A stretch of DNA of 64,000 bases from Marinimicrobium koreense (GTDB lineage Bacteria > Pseudomonadota > Gammaproteobacteria > Pseudomonadales > Cellvibrionaceae): positions 2,666,001 through 2,730,000 of the forward strand of contig NZ_RJUK01000001.1 of assembly GCF_003762925.1 (NCBI RefSeq). The letters run 5' to 3'. Every line of letters begins with the position of its first letter. The first letter of the stretch is position 1. The notes below the pieces were generated by a model. That model made no database searches, was not told the DNA's origin, and was given only the letters and a program-made list of their open reading frames with translations. This document shows positions 16,448 to 43,412 of the stretch, one piece after another. A program made the position numbers and the translations under genes.

Positions 16448-16603
16448 AGGTATGTTTCCGATCGAAGGGTATGGCTCCAACAGAGCTTGGGTTCCGTGGC
16501 GCTAGGGCATGACCGATCGACCAAACCACTAGCACTTTCGCGACCGTCTCCCCCAAGACCACGGTGGAATTGAGGTGTGGAACGAAACCCGTCTCCGTAG
16601 CGC

Positions 16604-18304
16604 TTATTCCTCGTTGTCTCGGGTGGGAATGATTAAACCCGGCTTGTGCTCATAAAGGCGCTCCTTCACGCTCCAAAGTCCTCCCGAGTCAGGGCGGCGC
16701 TTCCCTATCCATTGGTCAACAAAATCGCGCTGCGCCCACTTTTCATACTGTAATATCATTGATTGGGCAATATCGGGGTGTTTTTGGAAAAGGTCGACAG
16801 TCTCGGTGCGGTCTGCATCCATATCATACAAACGCCAAGAACCCAACAGTCGAGAAACTAGCTTCCATCTCCCGTCACGCACCGCACGGTTACCCTCGTG
16901 TTCAAAGAAAATTGGCTCTGGTCGGCTTAGCCTCTTCCCTTCAAATAGGGGAACTAGGCTTACTCCGTTCATGGGTAGTATGTCAGTATCCCTGTACCGT
17001 GCCGGATATGTAGCATCGCTAACGTCGATTAAGGTGGGAAGTATGTCTATAACATGGGCGGGCGTGTCCAGGAACTCTTTTTCCGGACGCTTTGAAATAC
17101 CAGTTGGCCAGTGAGCAATAAAAGGCGTTGCGATGCCACCTTCAGTAGAGAAGTGCTTGTAAAGCTTGAATGGTGTGTTTTGCAGCTCCGCCCAGCTCTG
17201 TCCGACGAACACTCTCGACGTGGGGCCTCCCAATGGACTCCCCAGCGACATACCGTTAGGGCCACTTTCCGCAGAACCGCCATTATCTGACAAAAACAGG
17301 ATTAATGTATTGTCGAGTTGCCCTTGTTCCTTCAAGTATTGCGTCAATCGCCCAACACTCGCATCCACATGTTCCATAGCGGCTGCATAAACCGCCATTA
17401 TATGGTCGTAGCGAATCTTATCCTCGCGGCTTAGGCTGTCCCAATCCGGAACGTCCGGTGACATCTCGGGCAAAAGCCAGTTTTCATCCAATAATCCAAG
17501 CTCAATCTGGCGCTGATAACGCTCCCGACGAAGAACTTCCCAGCCTTTCATGTAGCGGCCTCGGTATTTCTCTATGGTCTCCTGTGGTGCCATTACCGGA
17601 AAATGCGGAGCAACGTGAGACAGATATAAGAAGAACGGTTTGTTAGTAGCCTCGGCTTCCTGGATAAACTTAATTCCCCAGTCTGTCCATAGATCAGTTC
17701 CGTACCAGTATTCGTCTGATACCCGATTATCGTCCAGTTGCAGCTTCTTACCATTTAAAAAAATGGGGGAAACAACCTTTTGTCCTTTTTTAAAAGAAGC
17801 CTGATCCGGGAAATAAACGCCACCAGCGGGTAAAGCCAGCGAAGCCTGAAAGCCACGTTTATGCGGGGGCGTTTCATTATGTCCTAAATGCCACTTACCG
17901 GTCATCGCCGTAAAGTAACCGGCATCAGACAGTACATCGGCGGCCGTAACGGCTCGATCATGAAGGTAGCCAAGCGTCCCCCTCGATCCTTGACGCTCGA
18001 ATCCTGCCAAATAGCCCATTCCTGCTTTATGCGGGTACATCCCTGTTAGCAAAGACGCCCGCGTCGGACTGCAACGAGCCGTATTATAGAACTGACTCAA
18101 TTTGACACCGTTGCTAGCCAATTTATCTATATTGGGAGTTGGGATCTCCCCTCCATAGCTACTTATATCGGAGAATCCCATATCATCTAAAAGTATAACG
18201 ACAATATTTGGCTTTTTATCAAGACTTTCCGTTGAAGCGTTGGCCACGAAAGAAACGTAGGTAAATACCAAGATAATATACAAACCACATATTATTTTCG
18301 CCAT
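16604..18304 (-). CDS. Exported sulfatase, family S1 (arylsulfatase)
   Basis: The product has 566 residues with a signal peptide ending near VANAS. IVVILLDDMGFSDISSYGG is the N-terminal metal site. ARCSPTRASLLTGMYPHKAG is the catalytic motif, with Cys78 the formylglycine precursor. LFLSDNGGS supplies further metal ligands. The length and the KWHLGHNE segment suit the large arylsulfatase S1_4-like group. AGGAGC precedes the ATG. It lies upstream of, and on the same strand as, the multimodular propeller gene, 156 bp apart, so co-transcription is plausible. The preferred sulfate position on the galactose unit cannot be told from sequence. Confidence 0.9.
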   Translation of the reverse strand: MAKIICGLYIILVFTYVSFVANASTESLDKKPNIVVILLDDMGFSDISSYGGEIPTPNIDKLASNGVKLSQFYNTARCSPTRASLLTGMYPHKAGMGYLAGFERQGSRGTLGYLHDRAVTAADVLSDAGYFTAMTGKWHLGHNETPPHKRGFQASLALPAGGVYFPDQASFKKGQKVVSPIFLNGKKLQLDDNRVSDEYWYGTDLWTDWGIKFIQEAEATNKPFFLYLSHVAPHFPVMAPQETIEKYRGRYMKGWEVLRRERYQRQIELGLLDENWLLPEMSPDVPDWDSLSREDKIRYDHIMAVYAAAMEHVDASVGRLTQYLKEQGQLDNTLILFLSDNGGSAESGPNGMSLGSPLGGPTSRVFVGQSWAELQNTPFKLYKHFSTEGGIATPFIAHWPTGISKRPEKEFLDTPAHVIDILPTLIDVSDATYPARYRDTDILPMNGVSLVPLFEGKRLSRPEPIFFEHEGNRAVRDGRWKLVSRLLGSWRLYDMDADRTETVDLFQKHPDIAQSMILQYEKWAQRDFVDQWIGKRRPDSGGLWSVKERLYEHKPGLIIPTRDNEE

Positions 18305-18491: not shown

Positions 18492-19664
18492 CTACCTCAA
18501 GGTTCTAGAAAAGTCAGGGTAGAATCTTTCACCAACCATACGCATTGGAATAATTGCCGGACGAGTAAGAAACTTCCGCTCCAAAAGATCTCCACGGGGA
18601 TTTCCAAACATGGTTGCCCACCAATTCCCTTCCTTATCCTTGAATAAATTATTGTGACCGGCCCCAATAACGGATGTGTATCTATCACCGTAAGGTCCGT
18701 AAACATTATCGGCCGTTGATATCACCACGTCGTAGCTGTAACGATTGGCAGCCCAATCCTTTCGGTCTTCGTAAACGCGAGTCGGATCATTGGGCTCGCC
18801 CGGATCATAGGCATAGCTTCCATCAGGCATACGAAAGCTCCAAATTGCTTGGACGAGATGATACTTTCCCTTTGCCTTGAAAATGTAAGCCCCCTCAATG
18901 TAGGGCTTTCTGCCATACTCCTTTTCATCCAACTTTCGCATAGGCTCAGCCAACCCACTCATATCTTCTTTCATTCGTGCAATTTCATGATTGTGTCCCA
19001 CGAAATACACAGTGCCATCATCATCCTCGAACAAGCTTCCATCAATTCGAGGAAAGATTGGGCCATCACTATTTCCTTCTACGTTTTCATAGGGTCCCGC
19101 CGCTTCTCCTGTCTTACTACGTAGAATAAAGCTCCCTTTTCCGTTAGGATTTTCAGGAATAGTTGCGACAATAAAGTAATTTTTCTGACTTTCAATATAG
19201 TGAATTTCCGGCGCCCAGAGAGTACGACGCTTGCTGCTTATTGGGTTACCATTGAGATCCACAGTACGATTATCGTCAGCATAGAAGTACTCTTTCTGCC
19301 AAGTTCCATGCTTATCGAAATCCCATACAACGCCCATCGACTCCCAGTCTTTTAAATCTTTAGAGCGCCACAGCTTAATTCCTGGACTGCGATCATAGGC
19401 CGTTAACCTACCCGGCATCCCTACCGTTCCGGTCATATAGTAGTAGCCGTCGTTTCCTAGGTTAACGTATGTATCCCTGAGCCAATGATCAAATAAGGGC
19501 TCTACAGAATCTGGGATTTGTAATACGGGATCTTCTACATTTACCTCCCCATAGCGGGAAGGCTCATCGGCCGAAAGCTCACTCTCGTGCGTCTCTACCC
19601 CTTGGCATGCACATAGCAATGCCGATAGACCGAAAGTAATAATGGGATATGTGATACGTTTCAT
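18492..19664 (-). CDS. GH43-type five-bladed propeller lipoprotein
   Basis: About 390 residues starting at ATG 19664, where MKRITYPIITFGLSALLCAC gives a lipobox; ATG 19682 is also possible. FDHWLRDTYVNLGNDGYYYM is the first blade with the candidate base Asp. LWAPEIHYIE holds a Glu where most GH43 enzymes have WAPD. DGSLFEDDDGTVYFVGH and IEGAYIFKAKGKYHLV supply the other acidic positions. GH43 is known for arabinosidases, xylosidases and exo-beta-1,3-galactanases; an exo-galactanase or anhydrogalactosidase-like role is inferred from the locus only. It ends WWATMFGNPRGD, as does the second half of the 32015 protein. Confidence 0.8.
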   Translation of the reverse strand: MKRITYPIITFGLSALLCACQGVETHESELSADEPSRYGEVNVEDPVLQIPDSVEPLFDHWLRDTYVNLGNDGYYYMTGTVGMPGRLTAYDRSPGIKLWRSKDLKDWESMGVVWDFDKHGTWQKEYFYADDNRTVDLNGNPISSKRRTLWAPEIHYIESQKNYFIVATIPENPNGKGSFILRSKTGEAAGPYENVEGNSDGPIFPRIDGSLFEDDDGTVYFVGHNHEIARMKEDMSGLAEPMRKLDEKEYGRKPYIEGAYIFKAKGKYHLVQAIWSFRMPDGSYAYDPGEPNDPTRVYEDRKDWAANRYSYDVVISTADNVYGPYGDRYTSVIGAGHNNLFKDKEGNWWATMFGNPRGDLLERKFLTRPAIIPMRMVGERFYPDFSRTLR

Positions 19665-19831
19665 ATAGTTTATACTCGCCATTGTTTTAACCGAATTGTA
19701 TCCTAGTGTTGTTCTCCGGTCATAGAGAACATTCACATGGTACCTAGAAATTTGTAACATTCAGCCCATTTCGAATGGGTTATACGGTCGAGGCAGACAT
19801 CCTTGAAGCCACCTCGACTCAAAACATTACG

Positions 19832-20977
19832 CTACTGCTTGGGAAGGTCTCTAAAATCATCTAGCCACTGAAATCCTTCGTCCTCTGAATTACAAGTACT
19901 GAAGCAGAACAACCCATTGTATATCCATGCATCCGAGTTGCTCGAATAGTTTGGAAACGAATTCTGACGCAACGCAAAAGTGGCAACTCGAATTTTATTA
20001 CTATTTACGCTAAAATAATCTCTGTGGACATTTCTCAAGTAGTGTCTACGCGAATTAGTAAAATTATGCATTGCATTAAAGTCCAACCAACGCGACGTAC
20101 TTTGTATATTCTGCAACGTTACCAACTCCTCCCAAACTTTCTTGTTTGTACCTCCAGGATAGTATTGGTTAGCGTAAGAGCTTGAAAGCGAGTTTCCATT
20201 ATTACTTTTATACCAACGCATCAACGAAAACTCTGTTATTATAATACCTTGATTACTACGAATCTCACCCAACGTGAAATTTAATGCATCACTCCACTCT
20301 TCAATCAGATTGTGATGCATGTGAAGGTCTACACCTGAAATCCAGCTTTTGTCCTTTGCAAACTGCATCAAATCATTGAACACCGCTGTTCTTTCAGACG
20401 TTTTGTGGACATTGTTGAAGGATCCCATGTAGATATCATATGCATAATTGTTATTATTTTTGAAGTTATTGATTTCAATCGCCATTCTTTCATACCAATC
20501 CGTCATATCTCCATCCCTAAATGTCAGATCAGTTTCACGGAAAGGCTCATTGCCAACAACGACAATGTCAATATTTCCTGCTCCTGCACCCCGTATGACT
20601 TTACGCATAATATCAAAATCGTCTAGTCGTCCCTGCGTTCCAGGACCAGGAAAATCGCGTCCATTAGTAGCCCACTTCAAATTGAGAATCGTTTTATATC
20701 CCGCGTTGTGCAGTGCCCTGAAGTTAGTAATGCTCGGGTCAGCATCGACTTCCGCCTGACTCTTTCCGCGTAGATTCGACATATCGACAAACATCCTCAC
20801 CCATACTGTTCCTGAGCGCTGCAGCATGCCGTTTTCACTAAGATCGGAAAGTTGGACTCCCAGACCGTTTACATTTACACCCATTGCCTTATCAGCCTTC
20901 GCAGGTAAAATAGCCAAGCAGGAAACTGTAAGGGCCACCCACAGTACATCTGTTAAAAATCGACTAGTCGCAAACAT
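19832..20977 (-). CDS. Putative secreted TIM-barrel glycosidase, unassigned family (clan GH-A-like)
   Basis: The product has 381 residues with a signal peptide ending about AKADK (residue 30). VVVGNEPF places a Glu at 144 after a beta-strand, and IIITEFSLMRWYK places a Glu at 249. This is the acid/base (NEP) and nucleophile (TEF) arrangement of clan GH-A retaining hydrolases, about 105 residues apart. Other shared marks are MGVNVNGLG, NAGYKTILNLKW and GVDLHMHHN. The same set recurs in the protein at 29855-31435 and in the remnant at 31457-32005, so these are one family. I cannot match it to a named GH family by eye. It is divergent from the TonB receptor gene, which fits an enzyme that prepares that receptor's ligand. 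Confidence 0.6.
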   Translation of the reverse strand: MFATSRFLTDVLWVALTVSCLAILPAKADKAMGVNVNGLGVQLSDLSENGMLQRSGTVWVRMFVDMSNLRGKSQAEVDADPSITNFRALHNAGYKTILNLKWATNGRDFPGPGTQGRLDDFDIMRKVIRGAGAGNIDIVVVGNEPFRETDLTFRDGDMTDWYERMAIEINNFKNNNNYAYDIYMGSFNNVHKTSERTAVFNDLMQFAKDKSWISGVDLHMHHNLIEEWSDALNFTLGEIRSNQGIIITEFSLMRWYKSNNGNSLSSSYANQYYPGGTNKKVWEELVTLQNIQSTSRWLDFNAMHNFTNSRRHYLRNVHRDYFSVNSNKIRVATFALRQNSFPNYSSNSDAWIYNGLFCFSTCNSEDEGFQWLDDFRDLPKQ

Positions 20978-21423
20978 TTAACACATCCTCTTATTTGACA
21001 TTATTGGATCGACTGGAATAGTCCCTCATCTAGCAAGTAGCTTCGGAGTCTTTTCTACAGCCGCCTAGTATCTTTACTCTTACTTCATGAAGAAAAGACG
21101 TGTAGAAAAGCATAAGCCGAATTGAAATAATGAGATTTACATTACTTTATAATGTATTTTTATAATACATTTGGTTTCATAATAGTTCCTAATCTCCCCT
21201 GTTAACCAAATAAATTTCAGCCTGTACCGCAATTAAGCTAAAACTTGGCATTTTCTGGACATTAGGCTAAAACACGCCTTCGAGTAATCACAACCAACAC
21301 ATCCAGTTCGGTTTTTTCGGACTTACGCGTCTTTAATAGATAAGGGCGCAAGTTCTACCTGCCGATCATGCGCCTCATATGAAGAAAGACTCACTAACAA
21401 ATAACAATGGGTGAATTAGCACT
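20978..21423. promoter_or_regulatory. Divergent promoter region between the GH-A-like gene and the TonB receptor
   Basis: This is a 446-bp AT-rich gap with promoters for both directions. A perfect inverted repeat AATGTATT-TTTAT-AATACATT lies at 21151-21171 and could be an operator. The GalR-type motif found elsewhere in the block is not present here, so these two genes may depend on the ECF sigma factor or another regulator instead. Confidence 0.45.
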
Positions 21424-24336
21424 ATGACTACCAAAGCGACTAACTTGTCCCCCAAACGCCTTGCGCAAGCCATCGCACTTGGCGCTGCGTCGGCTGGCGC
21501 AGCCTACCCCTCGCTAGCCCAAGAGGAAGCGGTGCTTGAGGAAATTATTGTCTCCGGCGTCCGCTCTTCTATTGAGGGCGCTGTAGACATCAAGCGGCGG
21601 GCGACTAACATTGTAGACGGCATTACCGCTGAGGATATCGGCCAAATGCCAGATGTATCCATCGCTGACGCCATCAGCCGTATTCCCGGGGTTAACTACA
21701 CTACAAACAATGGCCGTGCTGAATTTGCGACAATCCGAGGACTGACTCCTGATTTGACGCTGACAACCTTCAACGGTCGTATCTTGACAACCACCGCTCC
21801 GGGCACGCGTCGCGTTGCGATGGGCCGATTGCCATCGGAGCTTCTTAATCGAGTTACAGTGGCCAAAAGTCCTGAAGCAAAGATGATCGAGGGCGGCGTT
21901 GCCGGAACGGTTCAGCTCGAAACCGTAAAACCTCTTGATCGGAAGCGTCGCAGTGTTGTCGGCGTGGTGCGGGGCCTTCATAACGAAAATGCCGACGACA
22001 TCGAAACCGCTGACGGTATGGGCTGGAGAGGTAGCTTATCTTATATCGATCAATTAATGGACAACAAGCTCGGTATCGCTCTCGGCTGGGCTGGACTTGA
22101 TGAAGACACGCCTGTCTATGAGAACCGGTTGTCAAACCCTAGGTTCCGGGCGCCAAATAACGGACCATTCGGAAACGCTGATGAGAATCTTACGCCACGG
22201 AATGACCTCGATAACAGTGGTCTTCGAGAGGTATCTCCCGGAGCGGTTAGCTACGATATCGTAGATCAGGATGTTGAGCGAAATAGCTTCTTGGCCGTCG
22301 TTCAATACGAACCAACGGCTGATTTTAGTCTGAACTTTGACGCAGCTTACGTAGAACAAACCACATTTGTTCGCAATAACCGGCTAATTTTTGAGAACTT
22401 GCTGATTCCTGAACTTGGTCCCTCTCCAGGAACTGAGGGTGATGTATCCATCAAAGAGTTTCTTTCCGGCTCCGATGACGCGTTCGAGCTCCTCACTGCG
22501 GTTTCCGATGGATTGGGCAGAATTGTCAACTTTCGAAACCCCAACAACATTGACGAGGAAACCGTAAACCTGGGGCTTAAATCCGAGTACCGTATCGGAG
22601 ACTGGACTCTGGGGGCGAACCTCTCCCACTCAAGCTCGACGCAGGATCGCGACAACCCCACACTGGCCACACAAATGTTGAGCGTCGATGGCCGGCCAGG
22701 GCTTCCGCTAACACGAAATGGCGCATTTGATATCACGGACTCCGGAAATATAATTATTGGATTTGAGGAGGGCGTAGAGAATCCGGAACAATGGGGCATT
22801 CGCAATATACTTACGTTCCAATCGGAATCGGAAGACGAAATTAATTCACTAAGTTTTGACGCAAATTGGAATGTCAATACGGGATTTATTTCGTCTGTTG
22901 ACTTAGGAGTTAGAATCGAACAGCGCGACCTATCCCTGGTAACAGATCGAAACCGTTACTTTTTTGGTCCACCACCGACGTCCGGAAACTGGCCTACTCT
23001 AGACGAATCTGATGTGGCTTTCGATTTCCCATATTCTAGCTACTTCAATAGCTACGGTGATCCTTCACGCGACGGCTCGAACGGCCTGGATTATACGCCC
23101 TACTGGCCACAATGGAATGAAGATGCACTTATTCAACGTGCTTTCGATGAATTTGATCGTCAAGACCGGCCTGCAAGTTACTCGTTTGAGGACCAGCTGA
23201 ACTCCTTCGACCTACCAAACACCTTCGATCTATCCGAGGACACCGCTGCCTTCTATGCTCAACTTAATTTTGATAGCGAAGTCGCGGGCTTAAACTATTT
23301 TGGTAATGCGGGTATTCGTGTTGTATCTACGGATGTTGAAGCCTCTGGATTTAGCGTTTCGCTAGACAACCTTACAGCTCGATTTGATGATGAGACGCAG
23401 TCTTACGCCTTTGGCGGAGTGAGCAATGACTTGCTGTCCAACACTGAAAGTCATTCTTACACCAAAGTATTACCCTCACTTAATCTAACGTTCGAGCTGA
23501 CGGACAACTTGTATTTGAGAACGGCTGCCGCCCGAACTATGTCTCGACCGCTATTAACCGATTTGATTCCCACAGTGGATACAAATGTAGACGCAAATCA
23601 AGCTGAGTCATTACGGTTGACACCTAAATCACCAGACCTCGATCCTTTCTTCGCGGATCAAGCGGATCTATCGCTTGAGTGGTATCTCAGTGAAGATATC
23701 TCAATGACCGCAGGCTATTATTTCAAGAAAGTCGAAGCGTTTTTGACTCGAGAGCTTCAAAATGCCACTACCCCTGCGATTGAAGTTGATGAGAGTGGTA
23801 ACCCAACTGGAGAAACACTTGACGTAGAAACTCTAATTAATAGGCAAGTAAATGCTGACACATCATTCGACTTCCAGGGACTAGAGTTCTCTTACAATCA
23901 TTACTTCGGTATGGGCTTCGGTGTTACCGCTAACGCGTCGTTCAATGATACTGATGCCGTTGAGGACAGCACCGGCGTCGGGACAAGAATAATTCCGGTT
24001 CCGGCTGGAGGCATTAGCGACGAAGTGTATAACGTTATCCCTTACTACGAGCAAGGCCCGCTAGCAATTCGACTTGCGTGGAATAAAAACAGTGGTTTCA
24101 GTCGTCCCGCTCGCGGCTCTTTCCAAGAGACCCCAGATGGTCGTTTGGATATGACATTTCAATATGAAGTGAACAAACATATTAAAATCATCGGGAGCGC
24201 GAGAAATATAACCGACGAAACTCTGGATCAATATACTTACCTTTTTGAAGGTGTCGATCCGGTATCCACCGGATACCCTGAACGTATAGTGTCTCCGGGA
24301 CGATCCTATACTCTGGGGCTTCGGGCGCGCTTCTAA
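21424..24336 (+). CDS. TonB-dependent receptor of the polysaccharide locus
   Basis: A 970-residue outer-membrane transporter taking up oligosaccharides with TonB/ExbBD energy. The signal peptide ends AYPSLAQ. LEEIIVSGVRSSIEGAVDIK is the TonB-box region, and IGQMPDVSIADAISRIPGVN plus FATIRGL mark the plug. The barrel ends GRSYTLGLRARF with a terminal Phe. It belongs to the TIGR01782-type group common in Cellvibrionaceae and Alteromonadales. There is no N-terminal STN domain, so it cannot signal in the classical FecA manner although an ECF sigma factor lies nearby. It is the only uptake receptor in the block and so the likely importer for the locus substrate. A strong terminator follows directly. 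Confidence 0.93.
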   Translation: MTTKATNLSPKRLAQAIALGAASAGAAYPSLAQEEAVLEEIIVSGVRSSIEGAVDIKRRATNIVDGITAEDIGQMPDVSIADAISRIPGVNYTTNNGRAEFATIRGLTPDLTLTTFNGRILTTTAPGTRRVAMGRLPSELLNRVTVAKSPEAKMIEGGVAGTVQLETVKPLDRKRRSVVGVVRGLHNENADDIETADGMGWRGSLSYIDQLMDNKLGIALGWAGLDEDTPVYENRLSNPRFRAPNNGPFGNADENLTPRNDLDNSGLREVSPGAVSYDIVDQDVERNSFLAVVQYEPTADFSLNFDAAYVEQTTFVRNNRLIFENLLIPELGPSPGTEGDVSIKEFLSGSDDAFELLTAVSDGLGRIVNFRNPNNIDEETVNLGLKSEYRIGDWTLGANLSHSSSTQDRDNPTLATQMLSVDGRPGLPLTRNGAFDITDSGNIIIGFEEGVENPEQWGIRNILTFQSESEDEINSLSFDANWNVNTGFISSVDLGVRIEQRDLSLVTDRNRYFFGPPPTSGNWPTLDESDVAFDFPYSSYFNSYGDPSRDGSNGLDYTPYWPQWNEDALIQRAFDEFDRQDRPASYSFEDQLNSFDLPNTFDLSEDTAAFYAQLNFDSEVAGLNYFGNAGIRVVSTDVEASGFSVSLDNLTARFDDETQSYAFGGVSNDLLSNTESHSYTKVLPSLNLTFELTDNLYLRTAAARTMSRPLLTDLIPTVDTNVDANQAESLRLTPKSPDLDPFFADQADLSLEWYLSEDISMTAGYYFKKVEAFLTRELQNATTPAIEVDESGNPTGETLDVETLINRQVNADTSFDFQGLEFSYNHYFGMGFGVTANASFNDTDAVEDSTGVGTRIIPVPAGGISDEVYNVIPYYEQGPLAIRLAWNKNSGFSRPARGSFQETPDGRLDMTFQYEVNKHIKIIGSARNITDETLDQYTYLFEGVDPVSTGYPERIVSPGRSYTLGLRARF

Positions 24337-24352
24337 CTTTTTTACTTAGTTC

Positions 24353-24382
24353 TAGGCCACTGTTGAAACAGTGGCCTATTTT
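24353..24382 (+). terminator. Rho-independent terminator after the TonB receptor
   Basis: TAGGCCACTGT-TGAA-ACAGTGGCCTA is a perfect 11-bp stem with a tetraloop, followed by TTTTCT. It lies 16 bp after the receptor stop and should end that transcript before the small FecR-like gene. Confidence 0.9.
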
Positions 24383-24521
24383 CTAATAAAAAGCCATGAG
24401 AAACGGTTCGTTCGCTAAAGAAAGTAGCTTGATATTATTTGAATACAGCACTTGGATCTTCTACATACTGGCCCCAACAATATGAGCTAATCACTGTATT
24501 TCCAAATAATATGGCAATATT

Positions 24522-24875
24522 ATGGAAGAGCGCCTTAAGGCGATCCAGATTTTACGAAAGAGCTTTCAGAGAGTGGATTCGATGAAGCAAAAAACAAGAG
24601 ACAACAACGTTGAGTTATCCGCACTTCGTTGGCTTGAACGAAATCAACATTCAAACGACGCCAACAACACTCTTAAGGATTATTTGACTTGGATGCGAGA
24701 TCCTGATAACGCTCAAGCGTATGAAAAAGCACTTCATGTTCTTTCACTTGTTAACTTCTTATCCGAAACTAAGCAGATAAATGAAATCAGTGAAGAAACC
24801 AACAAGCGTGTAAGCATAGAAGGACGTTGTAAAGACCACAATTCCCAGAATAGAAAATTGGATCATGAAACCTGA
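24522..24875 (+). CDS. FecR-type cytoplasmic (DUF4880-like) domain protein, stand-alone
   Basis: The product has 117 residues, no signal peptide and no membrane helix. The centre, ALRWLERNQHSNDANNTLKD followed by YLTWMRDPDNAQAYEKALHV, matches the pattern of the N-terminal DUF4880 domain of FecR regulators, which binds ECF sigma region 4. The rest of FecR (membrane span and periplasmic FecR domain) is absent, and the tail is polar. It may be a soluble anti-sigma or pro-sigma factor for the ECF sigma gene at 27895-28440, or a truncated remnant. The open frame is intact with no visible frameshift. It is transcribed away from the sigma gene, separated by the GH36-like gene. The assignment rests on a by-eye pattern only. 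Confidence 0.55.
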   Translation: MEERLKAIQILRKSFQRVDSMKQKTRDNNVELSALRWLERNQHSNDANNTLKDYLTWMRDPDNAQAYEKALHVLSLVNFLSETKQINEISEETNKRVSIEGRCKDHNSQNRKLDHET

Positions 24876-25200
24876 CTGAATTTTCATTTAACCTCCGGCT
24901 CCACACAATCTTTTACCTATTCTAGAATTTCAACGCTTTCTTATTAAAAACGCTTTAAATTCTTCCTCTCCCGGACATGTAGCTTTAGCATCCCAGGTTT
25001 GATCTGACAGTTATAGCTTTTCTGTTGGTTTCTGAGAGATCAGATCTAGACTACCAAACCTTACAACTGTGCGTTTAATATGAAATAGCATTATAAGTGC
25101 CGGAGACTCTTTACGTTTTCTTTAGGAATATCCATGTCATTGAAAGGCCGTTGCTTAGATGAAAAGCAACGACCAATAACGCTAAATTTATCACGCGGGC
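24876..25200. other. Intergenic gap between convergent genes
   Basis: No gene is seen. A hairpin CGTTGCTT/AAGCAACG (25149-25171, 8-bp stem, 7-base loop) lies about 30 bp beyond the stop of the GH36-like gene and may end its transcript, but only a short T stretch follows on the minus strand. The middle is AT-rich without clear motifs. Confidence 0.45.
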
Positions 25201-27288
25201 TTATAGTTTAAGATTAATTGTCACTGCTTCACTTGAGTGGGGCGCTTGGATTTCCCAAAGGTGCGTATCGAGCTGATCGACTTTAAAGCCTTGATTGCTA
25301 ACTGGCTTCTTTTTGTGATAAACAACAACAGGGCCTGATTCAACGAGAGTAAAAACCAGATTTTCCTTGTCATACTCAATCTCCGAAATGGTGGCCGCAC
25401 TTAAGTATTTGTCACTGCGACCAATTACAGCCCAGCCTTTCTGAATAGGAGACAGTTGAATAAGCTTGTCCGAAAAGCCTTTAAGTTCGAAGTCAAAACT
25501 TTCGTTCAGCTTGCCGCCAGCTTTCTCGTACCAATCATAGTAAACCAGTCCTTCTTCGGTTAGCATCCAATCTTTTTTCTCATCCTGAATCATTAGGTCT
25601 GCTTCGAGATAATCTTGCGGTTTAATTGAGGCTCTCACTGCGTTTTTTGGCGTCGGGTGAACTAGGTTATAAGCTATAATAGTAGCCGATCCATTAGCAA
25701 GGGGCGCAATGGTTTTATAGGCTTCGGCGACATTAAGCGCATCTAGCCCCGCAGATTCCACCATTGGTGATGACGGCGCAATTGGACGCAGGAGCCTTCC
25801 ATCATGAAAGCTCAACGGATCAATAAGCTCCGGAACAAAGTCGGCCGGCGCGTCGGAGAGATAAACAGGGGCGCCCGAAACTGCCTTACTAACAGCCATC
25901 ATTCGACCAGAAACTCTATCGCTCGAATGGAACATATCGTGATCTGGCCAAACGACTTGACCAGCCCAAAGCGTATTTTGGTAGCTCTGGTAAAGATGTG
26001 ACTTCGCCTTGGCCTGGTCATTCAACAGGTAGTCGACACTGACGCGACTGACATTGCTGTAGCGTGTATTGAATACCGTTAGCAGGTCGAGCGCGAAGCA
26101 GTTAATCAGTCCCTGAGAAAGATTGTGTACGGACTGCTCTAAAGACTGAGCATTACGTGCGACGGCCTCAACCGGATTTTCAGTGCCGAAATAGAAGGGA
26201 AGCACACGATTTTGATTGTCGATTTTTACAAAGTCAAAACCTTGATCAACCGTTCGTCCTATCATCGTATCGTAGAAAGCATGAGATGCCTCGGGCGTAT
26301 TCTTCGGAATTAGGACCCCCTTTTTTTGCTCGCTTTCGAACAGATGGTTATCTAGGGCCTTTTCAGTGTGATCGACATGCAGTCCCTGCCAATGACCATT
26401 CATCGCGTGCCAAATCGAAATCCAGCGAATCTTATCAGACTTCAACTTCATGAGTGGTTCGAAGCCATTTTTGAACGTTTTTTTATTGGGGTTGAATGAG
26501 AGAAGCTGGCTGTCTGGCATCCTGCTACCGGTTTGGTCCTGATGACCATCATCGACGAGCACCCAGCGTACGGGAACCGAGCTCGCTTCGATTTTCTTGA
26601 TCGCATCAACCAGTAAATCAGAGCTGATGTTTCGACGGTACTGTTCCCAACTGGCCCAGCCCAAGTACTCAAAGGGCTCAGGGTACACTTTGTCTTTGCG
26701 GAGCTTGAAACGGCCCTCTAATGGCTTCTCGGCGGCCGCCTGTTTGTAAATTTTTTCGAAGGCTTCATGAGGTGTGTTGGCCATCGCCCATGCAAGAATC
26801 GGAATGTCGCCACTGGTCGTTGCTGTGCCGAAATTGGAAAGAATCAGGTCCAAGCCATTGTTGTCGTCAATCTGGAGGTAGGACATAGTCTTTGGTCCAG
26901 CCAAACCGTGCACAATCAGATACCTTCCGTCTTTTAATTTGAATTGTGCAATTAGGCCTTTACGCGAAGGGTTAGACGCTGTCGAATCGGGTTTGTAGCC
27001 GTCTTCTACTAAGTTGCCAAGCTTCTCCGCAGGCCAAGCGAAGATTCGATTTGCAGCTCCGTGCAACCTGTCTTTTCCGTCGGTACTGAAATAGACGACC
27101 GAATCATAGGGAGGGAGTTTAATATCCCAACTATCGAGCGTGAAATTTTCCGGTGTTTTTTCGTAGCCGCCAAGGACCTTGATCCCAGAATCATCAAGCG
27201 CAGTAATGTCCAAGGTTTTTGCGAACGCCAATGAGCTTACAGCCCATGATAAAACAAACGTAATGGATGCGGTTAATAGTTTATTCAT
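25201..27288 (-). CDS. Exported GH36/raffinose-synthase (SIP1)-like alpha-galactosidase family protein
   Basis: A 695-residue protein with a signal peptide ending SSLAFA; ATG 27288 follows AGGAAAG, and the frame's earlier start would bury the signal. After a beta-sandwich N-terminus, a TIM barrel carries YLGWASWEQYRR, VLVDDGHQD (about residues 244-251) and DFVKIDNQNR. The Asp of KID (about 357) sits where GH36 enzymes keep the nucleophile, and PVYLSDAP lies where the acid/base Asp is expected. GH36 members hydrolyse or transfer alpha-galactosyl groups (known). Release of alpha-linked galactose from a galactan oligosaccharide is the inferred role. Secretion differs from the cytosolic plant raffinose synthases. 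Confidence 0.75.
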   Translation of the reverse strand: MNKLLTASITFVLSWAVSSLAFAKTLDITALDDSGIKVLGGYEKTPENFTLDSWDIKLPPYDSVVYFSTDGKDRLHGAANRIFAWPAEKLGNLVEDGYKPDSTASNPSRKGLIAQFKLKDGRYLIVHGLAGPKTMSYLQIDDNNGLDLILSNFGTATTSGDIPILAWAMANTPHEAFEKIYKQAAAEKPLEGRFKLRKDKVYPEPFEYLGWASWEQYRRNISSDLLVDAIKKIEASSVPVRWVLVDDGHQDQTGSRMPDSQLLSFNPNKKTFKNGFEPLMKLKSDKIRWISIWHAMNGHWQGLHVDHTEKALDNHLFESEQKKGVLIPKNTPEASHAFYDTMIGRTVDQGFDFVKIDNQNRVLPFYFGTENPVEAVARNAQSLEQSVHNLSQGLINCFALDLLTVFNTRYSNVSRVSVDYLLNDQAKAKSHLYQSYQNTLWAGQVVWPDHDMFHSSDRVSGRMMAVSKAVSGAPVYLSDAPADFVPELIDPLSFHDGRLLRPIAPSSPMVESAGLDALNVAEAYKTIAPLANGSATIIAYNLVHPTPKNAVRASIKPQDYLEADLMIQDEKKDWMLTEEGLVYYDWYEKAGGKLNESFDFELKGFSDKLIQLSPIQKGWAVIGRSDKYLSAATISEIEYDKENLVFTLVESGPVVVYHKKKPVSNQGFKVDQLDTHLWEIQAPHSSEAVTINLKL

Positions 27289-27894
27289 ACTTTCCTCATT
27301 TATTAAATAACCCGTAAACGGGTATGGAAGAGATTGTCGAATCTGGTGTACATAAATTCTAGCGCGACGCTTCTGATGACTTGGATTTATAGAAACCATA
27401 CCTAAACTTAAGTCCCTTAATGAGATCTTCCAATAGCTCCTATTCTTTCATCCTTCGCCACTCTTTATAGGCAATGGTAATGAAATAAAACGCCATGGAC
27501 TGTGGTACTTTTCAGCTATATCACTTTTCCGCATTTTTCCGTTTTCAGTTGAACCAACCCGACTATCGATTTAGTCCTATTGGCTATTATAAAGTTAACT
27601 AAGTAATACCCCGATAAGTCATAAAACAATAACAGATTCTCTTGGACTTCCTGCGGGAACACTATGACCTTCACGTAATTTCCTTCGAACCGATCCATGC
27701 ATGGTCCTTAGGCTAAATTGGCGGCGTTCAGGCCATGCACTAAAAATTACCATAACTCTCGGATACTTTTGGAATTATCAAATTAGGTCCGTTTCAAATT
27801 GGGGAGGGGGGGGATAAGTACCATAACCTGAAAAGCCTTGTCATAATAAAATACGTTGCTACCTAGCAGAGTACCGATTAGTTATTTATTTTAT
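27289..27894. other. Intergenic region upstream of the GH36-like gene
   Basis: This is about 600 bp of AT-rich DNA with no credible gene. It should hold the minus-strand promoter of the GH36-like gene and the 3' end of the sigma-factor transcript. A G-rich run (about 27801-27813, GGGG-A-GGGGGGGG) stands out. The GalR-type motif is not seen here. Confidence 0.5.
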
Positions 27895-28440
27895 CTAAAC
27901 CGCTAACACATCGCCCAATAAACCGATAGCTTTTGCGGTATGCTTTTCAGCAGATCTCGTCGAAATACTCATTAGCTCAGCTATCTCAGCATAGGGGCGA
28001 TTTTGAATCGCCCTCATAACAAAGATGTCTCGAGTACGCTCCGGCAATTTGTAAAGTTCAACTTTCAGCTTGTTCACTGCTTGCTCACCCATAGCGGCAC
28101 GCTCAGCGGAAATTTCCGACCAAGGTTCGGGAGCGTCTTCCAACGAACAGTGTTCGCCTTTCGACCGAACGGCATAGTAGCGAAGATAATCTTTATATGT
28201 ATTGGCAGCAACCCGGAATATATACGAATCAAGATTGTCTATACGGTCACAGCTGTTGCTTTTCAGCAAACGAAGAAATACCTCTTGAACGAGGTCTTCC
28301 GCCTCGTCAACACTGCTGACACACTTTAAGAAGTATTTGTAAAGTGGCAACTTGTATTCAGAAAATCTTTCTGCAGCCGAGCAAACATTCTTGCCTCTGT
28401 CAGCGCAAGTATCGCCTCGGGCATATTTATTAAGCTTCAT
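27895..28440 (-). CDS. ECF-type RNA polymerase sigma factor
   Basis: The product has 181 residues. Region 2 is seen in LYKYFLKCVSSVDEAEDLVQ and EVFLRLL, with the helix that opens the -10 element in YIFRVAANTYKDYLRYY. Region 4 is the HTH around LPERTRDIFVMRAI and YAEIAELMSISTRSAEKH. The layout is that of FecI-like/RpoE-like ECF factors. The N-terminal 25 residues with several Cys are not part of the core. The only FecR-like partner in the window is the short protein at 24522-24875. Two GalR-type operator candidates lie 136 and 191 bp upstream of its ATG, so its synthesis may be repressed until galactose is present. The target promoters are unknown. Confidence 0.88.
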   Translation of the reverse strand: MKLNKYARGDTCADRGKNVCSAAERFSEYKLPLYKYFLKCVSSVDEAEDLVQEVFLRLLKSNSCDRIDNLDSYIFRVAANTYKDYLRYYAVRSKGEHCSLEDAPEPWSEISAERAAMGEQAVNKLKVELYKLPERTRDIFVMRAIQNRPYAEIAELMSISTRSAEKHTAKAIGLLGDVLAV

Positions 28441-28575
28441 GTTAGCTCACCTCAGCTTTGAGCTATCGAGTTCTGCAAATGTGTATGCACAACACTTTTG
28501 GAGCACAGGCGTCACTAATTACAGGGCCGCCACATCACCTTTACGCAGAATTCAGTGCGAGGTTAGCAGCCGATT

Positions 28576-28592
28576 ATGTAAACGTTATACCT
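28576..28592. promoter_or_regulatory. Candidate GalR-type operator 1 (ECF sigma gene)
   Basis: ATGTAAACGTTATACCT is an imperfect palindrome around a central CG, as LacI/GalR-family operators are. It differs from the copy before the FGE-like gene (37156-37172) only at the last base. Confidence 0.65.
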
Positions 28593-28630
28593 ACATTAAC
28601 CCAGAGTTTTATGCCTGTCAAACGATAATA

Positions 28631-28647
28631 ATGTAATCGTTTAACCT
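28631..28647. promoter_or_regulatory. Candidate GalR-type operator 2 (ECF sigma gene)
   Basis: ATGTAATCGTTTAACCT starts exactly 55 bp from operator 1 in the same orientation. Its match to the reverse complement of the galR-proximal site (43653-43669) is 16 of 17. The paired spacing suggests looping or cooperative binding. Confidence 0.65.
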
Positions 28648-28777
28648 TTTTAGACTATTTCGTGATAAAATGGCTCACGCCGCTAGCCGAGATCTGACAG
28701 CAACTAGCAGGTGGGAGGCACACCAAAAAAGTGTTGGCACCTACTCTCTTACGCAGTTTACCCAGAGGGGATTCAAA

Positions 28778-29821
28778 TCATTTCAGTGCTTGCTTTTTCC
28801 TTAAATAATACGCCGATTTTGGTTCAACGACGACAAGATCCTCCCCCCCTCCAACATTCCTAAACTGAGCTTTTACAAGGGCCGTGGCACGTGGATGAAC
28901 GTCTGTTGCGGTTGCATGGGTATGAAACACATAGAAAAGCTGCTTATCGTCTCCAAAGAAGAAATCTCCATGGCCAGTGCCATCTGCGCCCATTGAATCT
29001 CTGTCGATAATTGGGTTCCCAAAGTAACGCTTCCAGGGCCCCAATGGCGAACTTGAGGTTGCATAACCCACTGCGTAGTCATCGCTTTTGAAATGGTTGG
29101 CAGAGTAGAACAGGTAGTATGTCTCGTTATGCTTAATTACCGTAGGGCCCTCAGCTACCACAGCCGACTCGAAGGTCTGAGTATCCTCCCACGTATCGGG
29201 CTGGGGCGTAATGCAATGCCGGAGAGTTTCAGGTTTAATCCCGCTCAAATCATCTTCAAGCTGTGCTACATAAATGTGGTTACCTTTATCCAACCTCACA
29301 TGGTAAAGATACACTTTCCCGTCATCATCCTTGAAAACGAAAGGATCTATCTGTCGGCGACCCTCGCCAAGAGGCATAATCTCTTCCTGTACAAAAGGCC
29401 CCAAGGGCGACTCACTATGCGCAATCGCAATATTCTCATTAGCTGTATATGCGATATAGTAAAGGTTTTTGTGCTGAAACACCTGAGGTGCCCAGAATCC
29501 CCTGTCGCCATAAGTCTGCTGACCTTTATTCAAAACGCGTCTTTTTTCGACGCTGCCCGGTGCATGCCATTGAACTAAGTCGTCTGAAACTAGAACTGGG
29601 AATCCAACTTGCGGCGGTGGTTCCGTTCCGTACAAATAGTATAGCTTTCCGTCATAGTGTATCGTTGGGTCCGCTATACGGACCTTATCGGGCTCGTACA
29701 CCGATGAATGGTCGAGACCGGCTGTCGCTATCTCATTCGGTAGGGAATCGCTTTGAGCGCAGGACGCCGCTATCAGTGACATCAGGATAGTCACGATTGA
29801 TATTTGAATTTTTGAAAACAT
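28778..29821 (-). CDS. GH43 family lipoprotein glycosidase
   Basis: The product has 347 residues with a lipobox at about residue 21 (LIAASC). The three catalytic acids of GH43 are readable: Asp51 in RIADPTIHYDGKLYYLYGT (base), Asp159 in RRQIDPFVFKDDDG (pKa modulator) and Glu224 in VVAEGPTVIKHNETYYLFYS (acid). WAPQVFQHKNLYY gives the usual propeller blade. It is therefore a better match to catalytic GH43 than the other two propeller proteins of the block. Known GH43 activities include beta-xylosidase, alpha-arabinosidase and exo-beta-1,3-galactanase; the locus favours a galactan-side-chain role (inferred). The GH-A-like gene lies 33 bp upstream on the same strand, so the two probably share an operon. 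Confidence 0.87.
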   Translation of the reverse strand: MFSKIQISIVTILMSLIAASCAQSDSLPNEIATAGLDHSSVYEPDKVRIADPTIHYDGKLYYLYGTEPPPQVGFPVLVSDDLVQWHAPGSVEKRRVLNKGQQTYGDRGFWAPQVFQHKNLYYIAYTANENIAIAHSESPLGPFVQEEIMPLGEGRRQIDPFVFKDDDGKVYLYHVRLDKGNHIYVAQLEDDLSGIKPETLRHCITPQPDTWEDTQTFESAVVAEGPTVIKHNETYYLFYSANHFKSDDYAVGYATSSSPLGPWKRYFGNPIIDRDSMGADGTGHGDFFFGDDKQLFYVFHTHATATDVHPRATALVKAQFRNVGGGEDLVVVEPKSAYYLRKKQALK

Positions 29822-29854
29822 ATTAAGTCGTCCTGTTTATCGTTTTTAAAGAGG

Positions 29855-31435
29855 CTAGCGCCACAAGTCAAAATCCTTATGAAGATACTTGTTGAAGGAG
29901 AACGTCCCATCAGCATTTTTTCGTACGGTGCGACTTAAAATGATACCGTTTAGAATCCAAGGACTAGTATTTTCATCGAAGATTTGTTGAGCACCAAACT
30001 GCTGCCATACGCCGTAAGTGGCAAGCTCAAACTGACCAGATGCTGTATCCATGAAAACATCGAACGCCTTCGAGAAATAGTCATTCAGCATGCTGTCATA
30101 CCAAGGATGCGCAGTCACAAAATCGATCCATTGTTGTCGACTGATACCTGCTCCGCTTGCCTGTCTGGCCAGAAGATCGTTTAGATATTCATGTACCTCC
30201 CAGTTTGGGTCAATGCCATAGGCTCCTGCAAATTCCGCATCAATTTGATCGCTCGTATGCTGCTTATAGTAGCGCATAGCTGAGAACTCCGTACTGATGA
30301 TCTTTTGATCAGATCGGATACGATCCAGTGCATACTCAATAGATCGCTTCATTTCGCCAAAATCACTATCTATATGGTGTATGTGCAAATCCACACCCTC
30401 AACCTCGGGCGTAGCTCTGGCGAGCTCAAGAAGCCCGTCAGATGCTGACTGGAACGCAACGTCATCGAGTCTATTGAAAGCACCCAAATAAATAGGCATA
30501 TTCTTTTTTTCACTTCCTGCACGGTACGCTACCGTGGCTTGAAGCATCTGTTCGTAAAAGCGCTCTAGATTTGGTGCATTGCTGGGCGCGTTACCTGGAC
30601 TTTCGATAATGGGCTCATTTCCCACAACGATGATATCAGCGTGCCGCCAAAATCTATCATATAGCTCAGACAAATTGCTTTTGTAAGTATCCATTATAGC
30701 TTCGTCCGGATCGGGCATATTACGATCTGGATTCTTGAAACCCCATTTTATATTGATGATTATCTTATATCCCTGCGCCTTAAGTTCTGCAATGTTACTC
30801 AACTTAGGAGAGTTATTAAGCCGGTATGGTGGCGTTGGGTCATCATCAAAGAAAAAGAAATAATCCAGAAATCCTCTAGCCCATTCGCTGTTGAGCTGAT
30901 CGATCGTCTCTTTCGTTTTACCCGTATAGTTTTGAATGGCGCCGTTTAGATTCACACCGATTTGCGGAAGCTTCGTCACGGTTTTAAAAACAGTGCTATA
31001 ATCCCCTACCGTTAATGCAGCCTTGTCGGTCCAGTTTCTCTTGGAACTCGCGATGAGTCGAACTTGCAAAGAATCGCCGTTTTCTACAGTCGAGGAAGTA
31101 TCGGTAAATGTACCTTCATTAATAGCGTACTCACCGCCCTCAATACTTATAGGTAAAGTGGTATCAATACCGGAGATTGTCACTAGCTCAGAGGTAACAA
31201 AAGAACCCGGCGCCACGTCATGTTTCGGATTAAAAAGGAACACATCGGGCGCATCAACCATTTCTTGGTTCGGTTCCGGCGCTGGATCCTGGGATCCGCA
31301 CTCATCAATGATTGACGATTTGCAGTCTCCTTCCGTACTACTAACCGAACTGCTTCCACCACAAGCACTGACGACCAGCACTAAAAAAATAAGTGTAAAA
31401 CTCAAACAAATATTATTTTTATACTGAATAAACAT
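29855..31435 (-). CDS. Lipoprotein with Ig-like domain + TIM-barrel glycosidase domain, unassigned family
   Basis: The product has 526 residues with a lipobox at Cys25 (LVVSACGG). About residues 63-155 form a bacterial Ig-like beta-sandwich (GSFVTSELVTISGID, LPISIEGGEYAINEG) seen as an accessory module in marine secreted proteins. About 158-526 are homologous to the 19832-20977 protein: IGVNLNGAI, AQGYKIIINIKW, IIVVGNEPI (Glu274), GVDLHIHHID and IISTEFSAMRYYK (Glu383). The barrel is longer here, with an insert near 395-450. The two Glu again sit about 109 residues apart, as in clan GH-A. Probably an endo- or exo-acting hydrolase of the sulfated galactan; I cannot assign a family. It lies 33 bp upstream of the GH43 gene. 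Confidence 0.62.
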   Translation of the reverse strand: MFIQYKNNICLSFTLIFLVLVVSACGGSSSVSSTEGDCKSSIIDECGSQDPAPEPNQEMVDAPDVFLFNPKHDVAPGSFVTSELVTISGIDTTLPISIEGGEYAINEGTFTDTSSTVENGDSLQVRLIASSKRNWTDKAALTVGDYSTVFKTVTKLPQIGVNLNGAIQNYTGKTKETIDQLNSEWARGFLDYFFFFDDDPTPPYRLNNSPKLSNIAELKAQGYKIIINIKWGFKNPDRNMPDPDEAIMDTYKSNLSELYDRFWRHADIIVVGNEPIIESPGNAPSNAPNLERFYEQMLQATVAYRAGSEKKNMPIYLGAFNRLDDVAFQSASDGLLELARATPEVEGVDLHIHHIDSDFGEMKRSIEYALDRIRSDQKIISTEFSAMRYYKQHTSDQIDAEFAGAYGIDPNWEVHEYLNDLLARQASGAGISRQQWIDFVTAHPWYDSMLNDYFSKAFDVFMDTASGQFELATYGVWQQFGAQQIFDENTSPWILNGIILSRTVRKNADGTFSFNKYLHKDFDLWR

Positions 31436-31456
31436 GAATTAGCCTCGCTGATCTCA

Positions 31457-32005
31457 AGTCCACTTTAGCCTATCAAAGGCCCGGCGATAGTCTCTGTTAA
31501 GGTCATAGCTACCAGTTTGTCTAAACTGTACAGTTCGATTGACGAAAATTCCGTTAAGAATCCGGGGACCCTGGGTTTTGTCAAAACTCCCTCACAACCC
31601 TGTTTGAAGGCTTAGTTCGCCAAAAGAAACTGTGGATATTTCGTAAAAATTTCATAAGCATCTGTCAGGCACCAAAGTCGGTATTGCAATGGTGGACATG
31701 TAGGTCTATTCCATAGACTTCTGGAGTTGACTTCGCTAGCGCAAGCATTGCCTCCGGTGCCTCCTGAAACCGGGGGAGCGACAGCCGACTCAAGATGTAT
31801 TCGCCCCCTCAATATCGATCGCTTTAGCAACATCGAGCCTAACCCGGACTGACAAAATTTCAGTTCTAAATAGAACATCGCGAAACTGTGCGAGAACAAC
31901 TTGGTCTTGGGTGCTTCCGGCAACTGCCGAGTTGGCGATGGCTGAAAACATCAGCACAGCCAAGACAGCATCAGAAAGTCCATTTTTTTTGACTACTTAT
32001 ATCAG
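31457..32005 (-). pseudogene. Decayed third copy of the Ig-like/TIM-barrel glycosidase
   Basis: Minus-strand fragments match the neighbour at 29855-31435 in order but in different frames. Near 31980-31930 is a signal-peptide-like stretch (VLAVLMFSAIANSAVAG). Near 31850-31815 is a piece of the Ig-like domain ending IEGG, followed by a frame change in a run of G. Near 31775-31670 is ALAKSTPEVYGIDLHVHHCN, matching ALARATPEVEGVDLHIHH, then a stop. Near 31560-31460 is the C-terminal piece RILNGIFVNRTV, matching WILNGIILSRTV. Both catalytic Glu regions are missing. This is a gene destroyed by deletions and frameshifts; the 103-codon open frame within it is not a gene. Confidence 0.85.
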
Positions 32006-32014
32006 GGAACATCA

Positions 32015-33892
32015 TTATATCCCTTCAGCCTCACCCGCCGCCTCCCCATGTTGCCGCACAGGCTTAAGCTGCATGTGGTTGCTTATGACAATGGGCACAA
32101 GACCGAAGTGCATTCGGAAAGGCGCAGTGATGTCGTTACCAAACATAGTGGTCCACCAGTTTCCGGACTTGTCCTTGAACACTGTGCCGTGTCCTGCGTG
32201 GGGAACGCCCATTCGCGCCTTGGTGTAAGGACCCCAGATGGTATCGGAAACACCATACATCATGTCGTAGGTACCGTTAGTGCGCAGAGGACCATGCCAC
32301 TCTGCCCCTGTAAGAACATACTTACCATTTATTTTGGCCAGCGCGTTTCCTTCGTAGCCTACGTGGTGGTTTTCGATCGTCTGCAGTTTGCGTGGTGGCG
32401 CCACAAAACCAGATCGGTCTGCATTAAGCTCACCGAGGCGTCCCCCGCCCCAAAGAAAGTACAACTTGCCGTTACTATCCTCAAAGATATAGCCATCAAT
32501 GCCGTCAACGAATTTTCCCTCCGTGACATTGGTATAGGGGCCTTCAGGTCTTCCTGTAGCGCTTTTGAACAAGTAAGTCACGCCCTTACAGCACAGACTG
32601 AAGGTCAAATAGTACGTATCGTCGCTTTTAACATATTTAAATTCGGGGGCCCAGAGCTGCATTCTCGAGAAGTCACCAGGACCTAGCTCGCTCCAACTCC
32701 AAATGGTTGCCACATCCTCCCACTTCTCAAGATCCTTGGACCGAAATAGCGTAATTCCGCCATCGCCATAGAGATATCCATAGCCATTCTGTGTTCCGAC
32801 AAGATAGTAATAACCATCACCGCCTAGTGTCACAGATGGGTCACGAAGGGTCTCGCTGGAAAGACGAGGCTCTTGCTCAGAAACAATAGAGTCCTCCAAG
32901 ATAACATCAGAAACTGGCCTAAGTCGCTCTCGTTTGGAGAATTCCAAAGGAACTATCGCAGGTCTCGTACGCAACGCCGCATAGCGATCGGCTTCGGGCG
33001 CGGCGTAAGTAGCGTAAAGCTGCCCATATTCATCTTTGAAAATAGTCGTTTGTCCGGCATGGGGTACCGCAAGGTAGCGACCCGAATATGGTCCTAGCAA
33101 GTTTTCTGACTCAGCGACATAGACATCATCCGTCGCCGTCTTCATGCGGCCGCTTACTTCGTTGGCGAATCCGTAGTACTTACCGTCAATTTTCTTGATG
33201 AAAATCCCCCGATCGCCTATTCGATCACGTGCGGGCCAATCTTTTTGCGCCGAGAAGTCTGTTCTCGGGTAACCATCGTTTGCCGGTTTGATGAATTTTG
33301 ATTCACCTATGACTGATGTGAGAGATTCATCTAAGGGAGCGATGAAACCATGCCCATAGAGAAGATAGCTTTTTCCATCTTCATCGTGAAAGAGGGAGGG
33401 GTCCGACTGGTGACGAATGAGGCAGTCAGATTCTTTGTATGGACCCGAAGCATCGCCTGTAATGCTTTTCGCCGTTCGGATACAACCCAGTACATCAACA
33501 AAAACGATATAAAATTGGCTATCAATGTAGTGGATTTCTGGCGCCTCATAACGCTCGCCCTTTGCGTCGTATACAGCGCCCAGTGGAATCCATTTTCGTA
33601 GGTCTTCAGAGTGCCATACGTAGATTCCGTTATTCGGTTTTTTGAGATTGGTTCCGGTCATATAGTAACCATCTTCAGCGCGGGTTATACTGACATCCTT
33701 CAATAAGTTATCGCTGAAAAGGGGTTTCAATAATTCGGCGCTCGAACCAGGCTCGTTAACTGCATTTAACTGATTTGAAGGGTGATCCCTAAATAATAGG
33801 TCGCGCTCACCCTCTTCTTCCTTCCTATCAAGTGGCGAGGCAGAGACAACCATCGAAACTGCGAACGCAAAAAATACAAACCAGCATTTCAT
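32015..33892 (-). CDS. Secreted protein with two tandem GH43-type propellers
   Basis: About 625 residues; ATG 33892 is chosen because MKCWFVFFAFAVSMVVSAS is a signal peptide. The first propeller (about 40-320) starts LLKDVSITRAEDGYYMTGTN and contains YEAPEIHYIDSQFYIVF. The second (about 330-600) starts LRDPSVTLGGDGYYYLVGTQ and contains LWAPEFKYVKSDDTYYLTF and VDGIDGYIFEDSNGKLYFLW. The candidate base Asp is visible in each (LKD, LRD), while the second-blade acid is Glu rather than Asp in both. A two-propeller chain suggests two linked exo-activities, or one catalytic and one binding unit. The sulfatase gene upstream is on the same strand, about 105 bp away. The substrate is unknown. Confidence 0.8.
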   Translation of the reverse strand: MKCWFVFFAFAVSMVVSASPLDRKEEEGERDLLFRDHPSNQLNAVNEPGSSAELLKPLFSDNLLKDVSITRAEDGYYMTGTNLKKPNNGIYVWHSEDLRKWIPLGAVYDAKGERYEAPEIHYIDSQFYIVFVDVLGCIRTAKSITGDASGPYKESDCLIRHQSDPSLFHDEDGKSYLLYGHGFIAPLDESLTSVIGESKFIKPANDGYPRTDFSAQKDWPARDRIGDRGIFIKKIDGKYYGFANEVSGRMKTATDDVYVAESENLLGPYSGRYLAVPHAGQTTIFKDEYGQLYATYAAPEADRYAALRTRPAIVPLEFSKRERLRPVSDVILEDSIVSEQEPRLSSETLRDPSVTLGGDGYYYLVGTQNGYGYLYGDGGITLFRSKDLEKWEDVATIWSWSELGPGDFSRMQLWAPEFKYVKSDDTYYLTFSLCCKGVTYLFKSATGRPEGPYTNVTEGKFVDGIDGYIFEDSNGKLYFLWGGGRLGELNADRSGFVAPPRKLQTIENHHVGYEGNALAKINGKYVLTGAEWHGPLRTNGTYDMMYGVSDTIWGPYTKARMGVPHAGHGTVFKDKSGNWWTTMFGNDITAPFRMHFGLVPIVISNHMQLKPVRQHGEAAGEAEGI

Positions 33893-33962
33893 AGGGAGCC
33901 TATTTGCATATTTTGACCAGCACATATGGTTCGTGCTCCTTAATTTTGGCGAACGAACCACT

Positions 33963-41118: not shown

Positions 41119-41162
41119 TTCCAATGCTCTGCTGTGTTTCAGTTTAACGTCTGCCAAAATCA

Positions 41163-42317: not shown

Positions 42318-42368
42318 TATTAAATCCTCACAGGTTAATTACGCAAGTAATTGATTCCCCGAGTTCCA

Positions 42369-43379: not shown

Positions 43380-43412
43380 GCCCACCCTCTTGTTATCCGG
43401 GAATTTCTGACA

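Follow-up and report, generated by a model that had tools for sequence, protein, structure and literature searches.

In a 64,000-nucleotide stretch of the Marinimicrobium koreense genome (the window), two genes encode homologous proteins, A and B, that are probably retaining beta-glycosidases of clan GH-A, encoded in an acquired polysaccharide-utilisation island for a seaweed-type galactan carrying galactose-6-sulfate. From the evidence set out below, we infer their hydrolase activity, beta-galactan specificity, endo mode of action and cellular location. The clan is known, and the family that they form is apparently unclassified among Pfam, NCBIfam and PDB sequences, so that the term "new family" is used provisionally.

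Two Homologous Proteins and the Remnant of a Third Gene

Both open reading frames described in an earlier note on this DNA were present on the minus strand. Protein A (19832..20977, 381 aa) has an N-terminal signal peptide followed by a single (beta/alpha)8 barrel, and protein B (29855..31435, 526 aa) has a lipobox-like signal (LVVSAC), an N-terminal beta module and a barrel spanning residues 158-526. The motif blocks said to be shared by the two proteins were all found, and BLASTP aligned A and B over 304 aa with 27% identity and 47% positives (E 7e-28). These common blocks therefore reflect homology, and a chance resemblance was ruled out. The spacing of two glutamates by 105-109 residues was exact, Glu144 (in NEP) and Glu249 (in TEFS) being 105 residues apart in A, and Glu274 and Glu383 being 109 residues apart in B.

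The N-terminal module of B (about residues 62-155, window 30970-31250) also occurs in unrelated proteins, such as the product of a 696-residue open frame on contig C2 of the same genome, and plasmid proteins of Alteromonas, Pseudoalteromonas, Thiothrix and Deinococcus. Matches to the genome itself near 369 kb of contig C2 cover only this module and were rejected as barrel copies.

The decayed third copy reported previously proved to be a genuine remnant, but a smaller one than implied, with ~330 bp recognisable (31463..31790, minus strand). Two pieces, at about 31641-31790 and at 31463-31609, lie in different frames with stop codons and correspond to B residues 321-367 and 478-523, while nothing corresponds to residues 368-477, which contain the strand-7 Glu. 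No family similarity was detectable in 31800-32005, which contains only a signal-peptide-like stretch.

Predicted Fold and Catalytic Residues

AlphaFold2 models of A and B were built with sequences from the window and from the related loci. The model of A was a (beta/alpha)8 barrel (pLDDT 90.9, pTM 0.90) with the same layout as that of B, in which the barrel blocks mostly had a pLDDT of 81-98 and the eight strands covered residues 158-162, 185-191, 224-230, 268-271, 315-321, 347-353, 378-385, and 469-475. Both models thus show the eight strands in order, as in clan GH-A. In B, Glu274 follows strand 4 and belongs to an Asn-Glu-Pro motif found in 40/40 aligned barrels of the family, and Glu383 lies inside strand 7 and is likewise invariant (40/40), in keeping with the Asn-Glu pair and the strand-7 Glu of this clan. 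Comparison with PDB structures gave a GH1 neighbour for B (Z 23.4, rmsd 3.4, 303 residues aligned) and GH1 and GH5 chains for A (Z 22-23), and Foldseek matched A to GH5, GH39, GH53, and beta-galactosidase barrels. The structural neighbours were mostly members of clan GH-A, mostly at 8-14% identity.

The acid/base and nucleophile layout of clan GH-A, which the earlier note had read from the sequence and proposed to check by structure prediction, was thereby corroborated, the models being TIM barrels with a Glu at strands 4 and 7 and with GH-A neighbours. The predicted fold supports an assignment to clan GH-A and to no single listed family. Glu144 and Glu274, at the end of beta4, are most likely the acid/base, and Glu249 and Glu383, in beta7, are the candidate nucleophiles.

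Searches for a Described Family

Neither protein matched a GH family in Pfam (24,736 models, E up to 10, GH53 included) or in NCBIfam (18,950 models, E up to 1), and neither reached the curated HMM cut-off of GH5, GH39, GH53, or any other GH family modelled in these two libraries. No significant GH match was obtained when 31 family members were compared with Pfam, the sole GH-named match being GH18_BT1044-like for one member (E 0.05). For A and B, all PDB sequences were searched with single sequences and with profiles, and nothing significant was returned. A Pfam DIL match on A (E 0.074) and weak PDB sequence matches (HSP83, T-complex protein, TBPIP) were rejected as not significant and unrelated in nature. 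The statement that the two proteins could not be placed in a known GH family was thus upheld in Pfam, NCBIfam and PDB sequences. A full-text literature search found no paper on the family, the nearest papers dealing with lambda-carrageenan and sulfated arabinogalactan.

These results leave a tentative case, somewhat short of an even chance, for a new CAZy family of clan GH-A, thinly spread over three phyla and cleaving the backbone of a 6-sulfated galactan without a described depolymerase. CAZy also contains families without Pfam models, and there is a minor yet appreciable chance that A and B already belong to a CAZy family lacking both a Pfam or NCBIfam model and a solved structure, which would affect only the novelty of the family and is compatible with the function proposed here. 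The absence of any GH match in the two model libraries and of any paper found on the family argues against this, as does the annotation of the Catenovulum and Bacteroides members as "hypothetical protein" in plasmid records.

Distribution and Conservation of the Family

In 84,980 species genomes, scanned with a single peptide pattern, 29 loci with the family were recovered, a number that is therefore a lower bound. These loci fall in Bacteroidota, Alpha- and Gammaproteobacteria, and Actinomycetota, and plasmids contributed further members from Catenovulum, Rhizobium, and Bacteroides finegoldii. The "plasmid" record of the last species (NZ_OY725927.1) contains the housekeeping genes mutS, lgt, and ychF and may be a mislabelled chromosome fragment. 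The barrel family is rare, since the genomes sampled (58 relatives, 369 of the class, and 395 Bacteroidota) yielded no members beyond the query genomes; it was absent from two genomes of the same genus.

The G-N-E-P, H-x-H, and E-F-S motifs, which include the two glutamates, and a late Trp are invariant in the 40 aligned barrels, which represent three phyla and in which identity to B drops to 20-38%. A strand-2 Trp-x-Arg was found in 39 of them, the remaining row being gapped there. The tree joins A to two copies from Alteromonas aestuariivivens and B to Catenovulum (the latter a join with long branches), so that A and B are old paralogues and not the products of a recent duplication.

The A. 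aestuariivivens locus (L028:4407-6779) contains two tandem A-type copies and a third barrel, together with a sulfatase and GH43 set much like that of the window. Two other barrels (L015:15915-16859 and L036:10001-11077) form a divergent subclade with PEFS in place of TEFS and with LGNEPN; these share loci with a typical member, which suggests a second function within the family.

A Low-GC Island with Sulfatase, GH43 and Galactose Genes

GC content is 0.43-0.53 across about 10-44 kb of the window and mostly 0.55-0.63 outside. The low-GC block is sharply delimited: it starts just past a spoT-type gene (7944-10052), and at its far end, near 44 kb, GC rises again to about 0.6. The window contains no tRNA gene. 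The block is best explained as a horizontally acquired island, a low GC content being expected for transfer.

The island contains four sulfatase genes with CxPxR motifs, three GH43 genes, and one GH36-like gene. Two of the sulfatase genes (10381-11799 and 11744-13291, together 10381..13291) are on the plus strand, and the two others, at 16604..18304 (closest PDB chain 7all, next the bacterial arylsulfatase 1hdh) and 33997..35553, are on the minus strand. A GH43 gene directly follows each barrel gene on the minus strand, 71 bp downstream of A (18492..19760, GH43-like, PF04616 E 1.1e-23) and 33 bp downstream of B (28778..29821), and a protein with two GH43 domains is encoded upstream of the remnant and B (32015..33961, minus strand). 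Homologues of the 28778..29821 product with 41-54% identity adjoin barrel genes in many Bacteroidota loci, and homologues of the 32015..33961 protein with 46-48% identity adjoin them in sphingomonads. The nearest PDB chains of the island GH43s carry the depositor labels xylanase or xylosidase.

Also on the minus strand are genes for a GH36-like protein of the Raffinose_syn family, a candidate alpha-galactosidase (25201..27399), a formylglycine-generating (sulfatase-maturing) enzyme homologue (FGE; 35801..36973, PF03781 E 5.2e-91), and a sodium:solute symporter (37315..38877), followed by galK (38910-40073), galT (40066-41163), galM (41163-42317), and galE (42369-43385), which constitute a complete Leloir galactose pathway (38910..43385); galM scored above the PRK11055 subfamily cut-off and the three others above NCBIfam cut-offs. 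A TonB-dependent receptor is encoded on the plus strand (21424..24336).

Two other genes of the island were inspected by eye. The 1044-aa protein encoded at 13346..16480 (minus strand) has a GH43-type propeller-like N-terminal part, followed by beta-rich modules; it gave no Pfam or PDB sequence match and has relatives in Catenovulum (28%) and, weakly, in Marinilabilia. The product of 27895-28440 is a probable ECF-type sigma factor, with a 39% homologue in the A. aestuariivivens cluster.

In the genes of the block that were scanned, no GH16 domain, no GH2, GH35, or GH42 beta-galactosidase and no arabinose genes were recognised. Outside the block, the genome contains four GH16 and three GH2 genes, and a carrageenan-type assignment by way of known endo-enzymes was rejected, GH16 and GH2 being found only outside the block. 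The earlier view that the block otherwise lacks a recognisable endo-galactanase thus held among its scanned genes.

An S1_15-Type Sulfatase Gene Close to the Barrel Genes

In a phmmer search, the sulfatase encoded at 33997-35553 was closest to S1_15A (9bas, E 6.7e-207) and S1_15B (9bau, E 5e-178), and it carries the CxPxR motif as CTPSR at residue 91. Members of S1_15 desulfate galactose or GalNAc at O-6 (PMC10154612, PMC12549532), and a specificity for galactose-6-sulfate is predicted for this S1_15-type enzyme from its closest kin.

Through the loci, 27 genomes were reached, and an S1_15-type gene was found in 21. In 11 of these 21 genomes, no more than 2 kb separate it from a barrel gene (0.08 expected under random placement), and in 16 no more than 20 kb (0.53 expected). 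As polysaccharide genes cluster in general, this proximity shows a common pathway rather than a direct partnership. Homologues of the GH43 genes travel with the barrel gene in many of the loci that hold this coupling. A sulfatase, an FGE homologue, a GH43, and the barrel occur together in Kibdelosporangium, the exception among the six actinobacterial members; the compared flanks of the five others and of the Rhizobium member showed no sulfatase or GH43 like those of the window.

Proposed Function and Alternatives

The most economical reading is that A and B act as retaining beta-glycosidases on a 6-sulfated galactan, galactose being assigned because of the galK, galT, galM, and galE genes and the S1_15-like sulfatase. 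B would be a lipoprotein, probably at the cell surface, with A as a secreted or periplasmic partner, and the two would cleave beta-galactosidic bonds in the polysaccharide chain. Sulfate esters would be taken off by the sulfatases, themselves matured by the FGE homologue, and the oligosaccharides would be trimmed by the GH43s and the GH36-like enzyme. Products would be imported through the TonB receptor and the symporter, and free galactose would enter central metabolism via GalM, GalK, GalT, and GalE. A and B are thus candidates for the chain-cleaving enzymes, as the earlier note had also proposed. The relatives from gut, soil, and marine bacteria need not all share one substrate.

If confirmed, these proteins would represent a GH family that annotation with Pfam and NCBIfam at present overlooks, "hypothetical" proteins of bacteria from the sea, soil, and gut would gain a function, and the enzyme still missing for cutting a sulfated galactan would be found; the close pairing with an S1_15-type gene shortens the list of candidate substrates to a testable few.

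Endo action is favoured because of the lipoprotein-type signal of B, the extra modules of its relatives, several of which have LamG-like and secretion-tail domains, and the fact that no other endo-galactanase was recognised in the genes scanned in the block. Lipoprotein signals and extra modules are commoner in polymer-acting enzymes, and these features, with the extra N-terminal module of B, argue against A and B being clan GH-A enzymes that free galactose or a disaccharide from chain ends, with a GH43 of the block or a GH16 from outside as the chain cutter. We consider such an exo role unlikely, though it gains some probability from the GH16 and GH2 genes found outside the block, which could be the source of endo or exo galactanase activity. 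The scanned genes of the block leave the exo role unfilled as well, and the fold by itself does not separate the two modes, the GH1 neighbours being exo enzymes.

Furanosides or xylan are frequent substrates of GH43 enzymes, so the target glycan may contain arabinose or galactofuranose. The abundance of GH43 genes, and an alpha-L-arabinofuranosidase gene in the B. finegoldii locus, would fit clan GH-A enzymes whose substrate is furanosidic or mixed (with arabinofuranose or galactofuranose, as in a sulfated arabinogalactan), the galactose genes then serving only part of it, and clan GH-A does contain arabinofuranosidase families. The full Leloir set, the lack of recognised arabinose genes among those scanned in the block, and the strong linkage to a galactose-6-sulfate-type sulfatase nevertheless make this doubtful. 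Finally, non-catalytic or decaying barrels serving as carbohydrate-binding pseudo-enzymes, an idea to which the remnant adjoining B lends some weight, are very improbable given the invariance of both Glu, the Asn preceding the first of them, and the late Trp across such divergent members.

Comparison with Known Systems

The reading of A and B as clan GH-A beta-galactan hydrolases can be set beside several described systems. GH1, GH5, GH39 (PslG, BcGH39), and GH53 enzymes share the (beta/alpha)8 barrel, the Asn-Glu ending strand 4 and the strand-7 Glu, with Foldseek E values of 7e-6 to 6e-4 for A, VIA-align Z of about 22-23, and rmsd of 3.0-3.7 A, but differ by an identity of only 8-14% and by the absence of any Pfam or PDB sequence-level match. 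One of them, the GH53 endo-beta-1,4-galactanase, has the same fold and, as an endo-acting enzyme on beta-galactan, a role comparable to the one suggested for A and B; the GH53 structures 6gp5, 4bf7, and 7osk were among the Foldseek matches, whereas identity in the structural alignment was 11-12% and no GH53 Pfam match was obtained.

The lambda-carrageenan cascade of Pseudoalteromonas distincta U2A uses GH150, GH110, GH2, S1_8, and S1_15 enzymes and ends in galactose (PMC12549532), and among solved structures its S1_15A is the nearest to the S1_15-type sulfatase of the island. In contrast to this cascade, the scanned genes of the block contain no GH2 domain or GH110-like match, and the block encodes the barrel family, GH43s, and a GH36-like protein. 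The sulfated arabinogalactan system of Bacteroides plebeius (PMC8406133) also combines a sulfatase and a GH43 on a galactan; in the part of that publication considered here, it employs S1_8, GH43_24, and GH145 enzymes, and a barrel family like that of A and B is not described.
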